This document shows positions 16,891-50,203 of a stretch of 64,000 nucleotides of DNA, piece after piece. The notes under the pieces are model-generated. The model saw only the letters and a program-made list of their open reading frames with translations, ran no database searches and was not told the origin of the DNA. The first letter of the stretch is position 1; every line of letters begins with the position of its first letter. This DNA is from Salpingoeca rosetta (taxonomy: Eukaryota; Opisthokonta; Choanoflagellata; Craspedida; Salpingoecidae). Location: the NCBI RefSeq assembly GCF_000188695.1, contig NW_004457740.1, positions 1,683,057 to 1,747,056 of the forward strand. Direction: 5' to 3'. Position numbers and translations under genes: made by a program.

Positions 16891-17932
16891 ATGGCTAGCT
16901 CAGCAACACCATCTCGGCATAAGGCGCTGCGGCGCTGGAGCTCTGTGATGCTGCTCGCTTTGGCCGCCACTGCTTGTCTCTGCTTCACGCCTGTTCAAGG
17001 TGCGATTGCGGGTGTGGAGCTGGTTCAACTGGTGGTCAACTGGTGGTCAACTGGTGGTCAACTGGTGGTCAACTGGTGGTTGCGCGAGGCGGAACTAGGG
17101 AGGGAGGGAGTGTGGGGTTTGGGGGGGGGAGAGGGGCAGATGGTGAGTTGGTGAAGCTTAAGCTATTCATCACTTGCCGAACGCACGCACACAGATGTGC
17201 ACAAATGCATCCATGCTGGCGGTACTTGCACACGGCTATTGCACAAATGTACAGCACTTTCATCACATGCAACTCATTGCGCTGAACTGCATATGCGTTC
17301 CATGTTTTGGCTTTCCTCTCCTTCTTCTCCTCCTTGCCTTGGGTAGGTGTTGGCCCTTATCGCCTTGATCTGGCGGTTGACTCCACCAGCAAAGTGGTGG
17401 GAGAAGGCCTGCAGGTGCAAGTGACAGCGAAAGACAGTACCGGCGTGACTGCCACGTCGTTCGATGCCTTTCAAATACAGCTCGCCACCAATGGCAGTGC
17501 GCTGCCTGCATCGTCCACCATTAGCATCAGCCCGTCAAGCCCCTCGGCGTTGGTTGTGCTTGTGGATCAACGAGCAGAGACCATCCAGGTGTCGCTTGTG
17601 TCAACGGCCTCAACGCCTGTCGAAACCGACATTTCTGCAACCGTCAGCGTGTCCTTCGCTCCAGGTGAGCAACGACGCAAGTGCACATCACCAACGCTTG
17701 GCGCATAAACACACACGCGCGCACACATGTACACCCTCACTCACTTGCATCGCATGCCCGCACGTGTACATACGCACACGTCCACATGTCCACATGTGCA
17801 CATCTTACGCACACGCACACATGCACACAAAACCACACATGCACACACCCTCACTTGCTTGCCCCGCACGCACGCACATTCACGCACACAAACACACATT
17901 CACACTCACACATTCACACACGCATTCACACA

Positions 17933-18005
<73 letters not shown>

Positions 18006-48800: not shown

Positions 48801-50203
48801 CGCGCAACTTCGCGGCCGGCATGTGGGCCGCGTACGCGCACGACGTCCTGGTGCTCAACGACACTGCACTACAAGCCACCGTCCCGGTTGCGGATGCTGC
48901 TGTTCTGAACAGCACTGTGCCTGTCCTGGTGGACGTGCGCGTCATCGCGGACAACGGCAGCGTGAGCGGTGTTCTGGCGTCCGGCTTCGAGTACCTGCCG
49001 GCGCCGGTCATCACGCGAGTTCGCCCCCTCGCTGTCACCGAGCAAGGCGGCACGAGCCTGACCATTGAGGGCCACAACTTTGGCCTGCCAACCTTCTTGC
49101 CGCTGTCTGATGCGGCACTGCTTCCCGTGGACCCCTTCCCGCCATCCCTGGATGCCGGCTTGCCCGCATACGGCGACGCGGCGCAGGAGACGGCCAACTG
49201 GCTTGCACCGCCACTGGCAGTGTACGTTGGGAAAGATGAGTGCCTGCACCCGCGAGTCGTTGCCTTGCACAACGCCGATACCAACAACACCAGCAACAAC
49301 GCCAGCAGTGACGGCATCGTCGCAAATGCAACTGCCAGCGTGGTGGTGTGCACGATGCCGAATGTGACAGGCATCGCTGGCAGCGAACCCCAAGTGACGG
49401 TGGTGGTGGATGGCGCAAGTGGCATGTCGAGCGAACGAGTCCGCGTGTTGGGCACTCCGGTTGTCAGCGGCGTTTCGCCCAACGCCACCTTTAGCGAGGA
49501 GGCTGAGCGGGTGACCATCTTTGGCCGGTGGTTCGGCCCGAGCACCGTGAGCGGCGAGGGTCCCGATGTCGAGGCGTTTGTGGCTGGGCGGCCCTGTGGC
49601 AACGTAGTGGTGCTCAACGACACGGCGCTTGAGTGCGATGCGGCGCCCTACCTTGGCCCAGCCAACATCACCGTCATTGCGGACGGCGTGCAGAGCGAGC
49701 CAAGCGACACCCGGCTGCTGTATTTGGCCAGCGCCGGGGTGTTCAGCTTCAGCGCGCGCACGTACTACGTGTCGGAGGACAGCGTGGAGATTGCGATTGA
49801 GCTTGTACGCAACATGAGCAACACCTCCTACGTGTACGCCAGCCCAACGGAGGTGACTGTGGCCGTGCGCAACGGTACGGCAACCAGCCCCGCCTACTTC
49901 CTTGCGGATGAGCGCGTTGTGAGCTTTGGCGTGGCGCAGATGTCGCGCACGTTCAAGGTGGCCATCACGGCGGGATCGCGGACTCAGATTGGGCCGCGCA
50001 AGGGCTACCACGACGATGCGACCGTTGAGCTGGCAATCACGGCCGTCGTGGCGCAGGAAGGCATTGCAGCCATTGGCACCGGGCGATCGCAGGTTGTCAT
50101 TCAAGCGCGATGCGAGGCGCTTGTCTCGGGCTGCACCGCGGTGATGTCGCTGGATGGCTCGCTCAGTTACACGCGTGACCCTGCTGTCACCATTAGCCCG
50201 TGA
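16891..50203 (+). CDS. Giant secreted multi-repeat protein, ~10,255 aa (Ig-like / SbsA-like repeats, IPT/TIG, Calx-beta)
   Basis: Nine exons join in phase: 16891-16999, 17347-17664, 18065-18385, 18645-18950, 19271-19879, 20300-21508, 21841-22125, 22301-22597 and 22890-50203 (27,314 bases). The product has a signal peptide (charged start, then [14 protein letters not shown], cleavage near VQG-A). Exons 2-9 encode about 12 beta-sandwich domains with the signature (V/A)xDQ(Y/F)GN, as in invasin/Big_1 or filamin-like folds. From 23270 come 60 tandem units averaging 141 residues: ADTTxPxLxxFxLDM, then [14 protein letters not shown], a valine-rich strand pair, DLNAIK, and a closing L-x-D-M-x-G-N. 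The F-S/D-E-P plus D-x-x-G-N pattern resembles bacterial SbsA/Big_5-type Ig-like domains. Three IPT/TIG domains and one Calx-beta-like domain end the protein; no membrane segment or GPI signal is visible. It is inferred to be extracellular matrix or an adhesin. A further 3' exon cannot be excluded. Confidence 0.93.
17024..17074. repeat. 11-base tandem repeat in intron 1 of giant gene
   Basis: About five head-to-tail copies of caactggtggt follow shortly after the first donor (17000). The repeat lies wholly inside the intron that precedes exon 2. Confidence 0.9.
17937..18000. repeat. (CA)n microsatellite
   Basis: A pure CA tract in the intron before giant-gene exon 3, flanked by long CACA/CATT-rich sequence (17708-18030). 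Confidence 0.95.
19160..19270. repeat. CA-rich tract ending at the exon 5 acceptor
   Basis: CACACA, CACTCA and CATACA units run directly into the acceptor (cacacacag|CGGCGG) of giant-gene exon 5. Confidence 0.92.
20030..20299. repeat. CA-rich tract ending at the exon 6 acceptor
   Basis: Interrupted CA repeats with CAAG, CGCA and CATA variants end in cacacatacag| at exon 6 of the giant gene. Confidence 0.9.
21750..21840. repeat. (CA)n tract before exon 7 acceptor
   Basis: A CA tract with a gcgcgc interruption that ends in acaatacatacag| at giant-gene exon 7. Confidence 0.95.
29631..30070 (+). repeat. Near-identical repeat copy A (pairs with 31179-31618)
   Basis: This 440-base block matches 31179-31618, exactly 1,548 bases (516 codons) downstream, with about five base differences that I can see and no gaps. 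Neighbouring units are far more diverged. Confidence 0.95.
31179..31618 (+). repeat. Near-identical repeat copy B (pairs with 29631-30070)
   Basis: Second copy of the block. Differences include aca/acg and ctt/ctc near the start, gac/aat and gag/gaa near the end; the roughly 370 bases between are identical by eye. Confidence 0.95.
43964..44110 (+). other. Four-fold CX3C cysteine array inside repeat 50 of the giant protein
   Basis: The repeat opening at about 43588 has an insertion with eight cysteines arranged as CTLAC, CRDGC, CWANC and CVRGC, spaced by 9, 9 and 11 residues. It resembles paired CX3C helical-hairpin motifs rather than an Ig-like strand. The rest of the repeat resumes afterwards ([14 protein letters not shown]...). 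Confidence 0.85.
48647..49735 (+). other. Three IPT/TIG domains of the giant protein
   Basis: Three openings of the IPT/TIG type follow the repeat array: [17 protein letters not shown] then [28 protein letters not shown] then [10 protein letters not shown]; and [16 protein letters not shown] then [16 protein letters not shown] are Ig-like folds found in plexins, transcription factors and bacterial or protist surface proteins. They form the membrane-distal or C-terminal cap of this protein. Confidence 0.85.
49736..50203 (+). other. Calx-beta-like C-terminal domain of the giant protein
   Basis: [26 protein letters not shown], then [17 protein letters not shown] and RTFKVAI follow the Calx-beta pattern FxxxxYxVxExxGxxxIxVxRxx...VxYxTxxGTAxxgxDY. 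Calx-beta domains often bind calcium; here the canonical acid-rich D-F/Y step is changed ([12 protein letters not shown]), so calcium binding is uncertain. Confidence 0.65.

Follow-up and report, generated by a model that had tools for sequence, protein, structure and literature searches.

A 64,000-nucleotide stretch of the Salpingoeca rosetta genome (assembly GCF_000188695.1, contig NW_004457740.1, positions 1,683,057 to 1,747,056; hereafter the window) carries a gene predicted to encode a giant protein in which 60 SbsC/Big_5-like units follow one another. In long repeat arrays, units are expected to come and go, and relatives then fall out of register. Here we found the opposite pattern, i.e., a unit order that, as judged from sequence comparison, is kept in distant relatives over the last 35 units tested. 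We regard the protein as probably a filament component, secreted, N-glycosylated and fixed in length. Its most likely site is the net outside the cell at the apical collar and flagellum (vane, collar mesh), together with sister giants encoded in the same genome.

A single predicted gene encodes a giant protein

The gene model rests on genomic sequence, with exon joins predicted from reading frames and splice signals. An earlier sequence-only reading of the window had proposed one continuous gene of about 10,255 residues; consistent with this, nine joined exons (Table 1) yield 30,768 nt that encode 10,255 amino acids and a stop codon, without internal stops. All eight introns are of the GT...AG type and in phase 1. 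Given the base composition of exon 9, the probability of meeting no stop in its 9,104 codons is approximately 10^-112. The five other frames contain 82 to 379 stops. The gene lies on the contig that we call C1, one of the 49 in the 54.4-Mb assembly.

The predicted protein has a mass of about 1.07 MDa before glycans, is acidic (1,014 D+E vs 483 K+R) and is rich in N-glycosylation sequons. A signal peptide-like start, as expected from the sequence-only reading, was visible by Kyte-Doolittle hydropathy as hydrophobic windows from residues 16-21. Several 19-residue windows within the units also exceeded 1.6, with a maximum of 2.02 at residue 5059, and are read as strands or strand-rich stretches. 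We infer a secreted protein without a membrane anchor, with the qualification that the signal peptide-like N-terminus is seen by hydropathy only and that the C-terminus may continue beyond position 50203.

Domain composition and fold of the repeated unit

A hidden Markov model (HMM) built from one unit matched 62 stretches, plus one marginal N-terminal match. Two pairs of stretches were counted as halves of one insertion-bearing unit each, giving 60 units (mean length 140.9 amino acids, median 131), the number that had been read earlier from the sequence. Each unit contains three nearly invariant acidic residues, i.e., the E of the FDEP motif, the D of DMxGN and a D in the linker. A confident AlphaFold2 model of units 11 and 12 (27284-28042), the only units modelled, was a beta-sandwich that matched the SbsC-type fold. 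The earlier guess of an SbsA/Big_5-like fold was thus borne out by this structure match; models other than sandwiches had been named in advance as grounds for giving it up. Support from Pfam Big_5 (PF13205) was weaker: the score came to 62.3 bits when summed across the first half of exon 9 and to 17.9 bits for the second, against a cut-off of 23.6, and three of 23 single units reached E<=0.01, the first of these at 18.1 bits. Comparison of the unit profile with the sequences of solved structures gave one chance match only (E 0.42), and for the first 4,536 residues encoded by exon 9 NCBIfam gave no match. When the whole genome was scanned with the Big_5 model, this locus went unreported. The sole match in that scan was C24:489335-489616 (30.1 bits), in a 948-codon frame outside the giant arrays found.

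Twelve DQYGN-type Ig-like domains precede the array, in agreement with the "about 12" of the sequence-only reading. They are distributed over exons 2-9 as 1, 1, 1, 2, 4, 1, 1 and 1, and the DQYGN motif is degenerate in some. Summed across the N-terminal part, Pfam Ig_GEX2_N reached 33.4 bits (cut-off 27), and no stretch passed singly; searched against the S. rosetta genome, these domains gave four matches at E<=0.001, all inside this gene. At the other end, a TIG and Calx-beta-like terminus had been claimed. The TIG part stood: the second half of exon 9 scored 58.3 bits against a cut-off of 20.9, and two stretches reached E<=1 singly, the third domain being based on sequence and homologs. Membership in Calx-beta did not, the score of 16.4 bits lying under the cut-off of 27; we call the end domain Calx-beta-like because the region aligns co-linearly with homologs, three of which have a listed Calx-beta domain (P0051, P0071, P0073). 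No second match to the TIG/Calx end was found in the S. rosetta genome at E<=0.001 among the candidates scored. Taken together, the protein is modelled as 12 + 60 + about 4 domains, with the 60-unit type shown as a beta-sandwich by structure prediction.

Within the array, one 443-nt tract recurs nearly unchanged (Table 1), its partner covering unit 21 and running 50 nt into unit 22, whereas the DNA identity of every other unit pair is at most 61.3%; the tract shared by units 17 and 21 is a probable case of recent gene conversion. A candidate super-repeat at offset 4 was rejected, given that 12 of 300 permutations reached its score.

Unit order is kept in distant relatives

Homologs were sought among proteins of approximately 5,000-15,900 residues; 519 candidates were scored and 84 kept. 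The TIG/Calx end was matched by 16 of these at E<=0.001 (P0064 in part only), with C-termini that are 24-28% identical. The 16 are not independent, as the 15 with intact ends fall into six clusters at 50% identity. In a FastTree phylogeny of 17 C-termini, P0080 and the S. rosetta protein stood together against the other 15 (support 0.999).

To determine register, all units were scored against all homolog units, row and column means were removed, and diagonals were summed. The best of 72-81 offsets was 0, counted from the C-terminus, in all 16 TIG/Calx-end homologs, while the remaining 68 had no offset in common. A profile of 15 homologs against the 60 units gave z 6.72, a value that none of 2000 permutations equalled (maximum 4.68) and that compares with 2.59 for reversed order. 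By segment, z was 6.48 for the last 12 positions, 2.26 for the next 12 and 2.86 for the next 11. P0080 alone (z 5.75) and the other 14 homologs (z 5.86) each exceeded all 2000 permutations.

Several results weigh against a strict reading of this register. A chain-based test was weaker, with z ranging from 0.3 to 5.3 across the 16. Taken singly, nine of the 16 exceeded 3.79, the top reversed-order z over all 84 homologs, and seven of these nine also beat their own 100 permutations; two homologs outside the 16, P0014 and P0035, likewise passed 3.79, but lay within their own permutations. Many single units are unrecognisable across species, ranking first in four of 35 cases after normalisation (median rank 12 of 60) and in two of 35 in an unnormalised test dominated by the most typical unit. 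Finally, none of four named sponge proteins (P0001, P0007, P0010, P0023) was in register with this array.

Sister arrays share register and periods with sponge proteins

Three more unit arrays were found in the S. rosetta genome among the best candidates scored. The C9 array is a frame of 11,162 codons including two runs of N (C9:1082733-1087014 and 1092015-1097014); the stretch after the first run strongly resembles the stretch before it (offset 14, z 12.6), and because of the N runs and this resemblance its true length is uncertain. The C14 array has 4,918 codons and, by eye, a signal peptide-like start; DQYGN-type exons were seen by eye in both C14 and C9. The C13 array (C13:234670-249141) consists of three frames of 3,246, 702 and 1,024 codons, a split that may stem from introns that were missed, from faults in the assembly or from decay of the gene.

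Only four of the 84 homologs carry a species name, and all four are sponge proteins: P0001 of Dysidea avara, P0007 and P0010 of Corticium candelabrum, and P0023 of Ephydatia muelleri. Two further homologs are from EukProt and may come from choanoflagellates, as they are named in the style of several of the closest relatives of the S. rosetta UDP-glucose dehydrogenase. A vane or collar-mesh component would be expected in choanoflagellates and sponges but not in other animals; the four species-named giants, all from sponges, are 4 of 84 in a search that covered long proteins only. The C14 array was in register with Corticium P0007 (offset 0, z 8.50), and also with P0077, P0083 and P0008 (each 0/2000 permutations, as for P0007). 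The C9 array was in register with Dysidea P0001 (z 6.33) and less strongly with Ephydatia P0023 (4.36), each 0/2000, and more weakly with Corticium P0010 (3.88; 9/2000). Reversed-order maxima over all 84 were 3.46 (C9), 3.51 (C14) and 4.95 (C13), next to the value given above for C1; with two of 84 homologs barely above its maximum, C13 was set aside.

An internal period beyond 300 permutations was present in 48 of the 84 homologs, being 23 units in 28 (including Corticium P0007 and EukProt P0008), 18 units in eight (including Dysidea P0001, Corticium P0010 and Ephydatia P0023) and some other length in 12. None of the 16 TIG/Calx-end relatives was among these 48. The C14 array has a period of 23 units (z 7.13; 0/300 permutations), and C9 has a best period of 34 and a second of 18. 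To judge from the register and periods of C14 and C9 and of named sponge proteins, at least two kinds of giant array would predate the split between choanoflagellates and sponges. A third kind, i.e., the present array without a super-repeat, probably does so too, depending on sponges being among the 16. If true, the common ancestor of choanoflagellates and sponges already possessed several giant array proteins, and units have individual roles. These paralogs, the conserved unit order and the sponge relatives are additions to what had been read from the sequence earlier.

Two further groups of homologs differ in composition. P0058, P0080, P0082 and P0084 are nearly free of sequons (1 to 5, vs 38 to 66 of the reversed motif), an apparent selection against sequons in these sequences, contrary to what is seen in S. 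rosetta and in the examined sponges. In P0058, P0063, P0068 and P0081 the unit is combined with Cys-rich ends (PF00020 precomputed for P0058, P0063 and P0081; P0068 by eye). To judge from this different architecture, the unit family may extend beyond choanoflagellates and sponges. No published description of the family was found among the titles and abstract openings listed from the open-licence PubMed Central (PMC) literature.

The homologs also bear on the end of the gene. It is rather unlikely, in our estimate, that several shorter proteins are made from the frame or that the frame extends past position 50203 into further exons. In 14 of the 15 intact homologs the frame ends at nearly one and the same point, give or take a few residues. 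The last residue is one that NNG can encode, which is explainable by a phase-2 donor followed by TAA (as read from protein ends), and the S. rosetta frame ends CC|GTGATG. P0080 extends some 35-40 residues past the shared spot. In two length-limited searches in which the best candidates were scored, no S. rosetta entry was found, either among the 84 long homologs or among four C-terminus matches of approximately 2,170-6,900 residues, and the gene seems to be missing or fragmented in the deposited annotation. Against a longer gene, no downstream exon was found when the P0080 tail was compared with 49.9-54.0 kb (best E 0.09), and a gene on the opposite strand seemingly starts near 51.9 kb (by eye).

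Recent acquisition of the array from bacteria is highly improbable. The nearest Pfam family and solved fold are bacterial, but the genome holds three further arrays, and eukaryotic relatives are in register, including named sponge proteins for the sister arrays. When prokaryote genomes were scanned with two units, an approach that picks up close relatives only, the yield was a single 26% match (L041) from 81 candidate stretches; on viral contigs, none of 11 candidate stretches was confirmed. A very ancient transfer from bacteria is possible. Transfer candidates with extracellular functions in S. rosetta are listed in PMC7971027, and that paper does not use the term Ig-like.

A possible filament of the flagellar vane and collar net

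In the proposed structure, consecutive units would join end to end to form a rod about 0.3 micrometres long, if each domain is taken to add 4-4.5 nm. The three acidic residues of each unit may bind calcium and stiffen the joints. As the units each hold a place of their own, particular units could carry particular lateral contacts; these would join neighbouring filaments at set distances into a net. Together with the sister giants, the extracellular net of the collar/flagellum apparatus would be built in this way, other extracellular matrix being the main alternative site.

The S. rosetta vane is described in PMC9671500 as a net in two layers. Its filaments, about 3.5 nm thick, arise from the membrane, branch about 80 nm further out and reach beyond 1.2-3 micrometre fields. 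It has been compared with the vane of sponge choanocytes (PMC9671500). Vanes and meshes are also described in passages of PMC7755389. A string of glycosylated Ig-like domains would fit the filament thickness, and the distribution of the family is so far not contradictory; the link to the vane is a hypothesis of rather low probability. Other observations in PMC9671500 speak against it: the vane resisted proteinase K and the authors favour carbohydrate or glycoprotein, and sponge vanes are described as narrower and denser. The vane or collar site is a prediction from sequence and model, and the hydrophobic windows within units were judged by hydropathy.

More doubtful is the idea that the flagellar vane and the collar net have giant arrays as their filaments, with the conserved unit count as a molecular ruler. 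Super-repeats of 23 or 18 units (92-104 or 72-81 nm at the assumed 4-4.5 nm) would then set branch points. That the 18-unit length comes close to the 80 nm reported between membrane and first branch is for now a numerical coincidence, as the rise per unit is assumed.

A place in some other structure outside the S. rosetta cell (theca, rosette matrix or secreted matrix) would be a plausible but less likely alternative, as the protein looks secreted, acidic and sequon-rich, as any matrix protein would. Against it, the family is shared with sponges, which are not known to have a theca or rosettes; four giant genes in one genome would moreover suit a structure with several strand types. Neither point is decisive. 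An adhesin for bacterial prey capture or for mating/recognition, akin to bacterial giant adhesins or cadherin links, is improbable: an extracellular chain of beta-sandwich type with a TIG/Calx-beta end resembles bacterial giant adhesins in layout, but a fixed unit order in distant relatives exceeds the needs of a simple stalk, and Pfam found no lectin or cadherin domain in this protein. A role in matrix, theca, or flagellar or microvillar links, offered as inference in the sequence-only reading, keeps that standing.

For the collar/flagellum site, the family provides a candidate, open to test, for the filaments that the feeding flagellum and collar bear, and the four giant genes a short candidate list for the makeup of the vane and collar net in S. 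rosetta. This organism is genetically tractable.

Features of the gene and its neighbourhood

Table 1. Coordinates of the giant gene and its parts, as positions in the window.
Feature	Position	Strand	Content and basis
Exon 1	16891..16999	+	Start codon and signal peptide-like start
Exons 2-8	17347-17664, 18065-18385, 18645-18950, 19271-19879, 20300-21508, 21841-22125, 22301-22597	+	11 of the 12 DQYGN-type Ig-like domains
Exon 9	22890..50203	+	Single 27.3 kb open frame: DQYGN-type domain 12, 60 units, TIG, Calx-beta-like end
Array of 60 SbsC/Big_5-like units	23285..48652	+	Residues 1284-9739; unit-seeded HMM
443-nt tract	29612..30054	+	Unit 17 plus the next 50 nt, in unit 18; 98.2% identity with 31160-31602
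Three IPT/TIG domains	48647..49732	+	Approximate starts 48647, 48998, 49454; Pfam TIG
Calx-beta-like domain and conserved Cys-containing tail	49733..50200	+	Below Pfam cut-off; co-linear with homologs

Elsewhere in the window, a UDP-glucose dehydrogenase gene occupies about 54.7-57.9 kb on the minus strand. Pieces of its product match the S. rosetta enzyme with full identity across 335 residues, the second-best hit being at 92%. By eye, the other neighbours resemble a RAD51-type gene upstream (minus strand), an Sm/LSM-type gene near 52 kb (minus strand) and ribosomal protein S25 near 54 kb. The predicted product of an open frame at 58949-60316 (minus strand) is secreted or membrane-bound and matches Stanniocalcin weakly (14.8 bits; cut-off 23), a hormone family best known from animals.

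Comparison with known systems

The sponge aggregation factor combines Calx-beta repeats with a Wreath domain, whereas one Calx-beta-like domain is seen here. Cadherin intermicrovillar and tip links (PMC4942974, PMC8691648) resemble the proposed filament as extracellular chains that space projections, and differ in that no cadherin domain was found here by Pfam; according to PMC4942974, known intermicrovillar cadherins have no obvious sponge orthologs, and choanocyte-enriched cadherins are offered as candidates. Bacterial giant adhesins with Ig-like arrays are alike in being very long beta-sandwich chains and may work alike, but differ in host, unit and end domains. The S-layer protein SbsC and Pfam Big_5 provide the fold match and the weaker profile match, respectively; in contrast to these, 60 units stand here in a eukaryotic, sequon-rich chain, with most single units under Pfam detection. 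The deposited models of the sponge giants lack a match to the TIG/Calx end and are out of register with the present array, but they contain arrays of 43-60 such units, with P0007 in register with C14, and P0001, P0023 and, more weakly, P0010 in register with C9.
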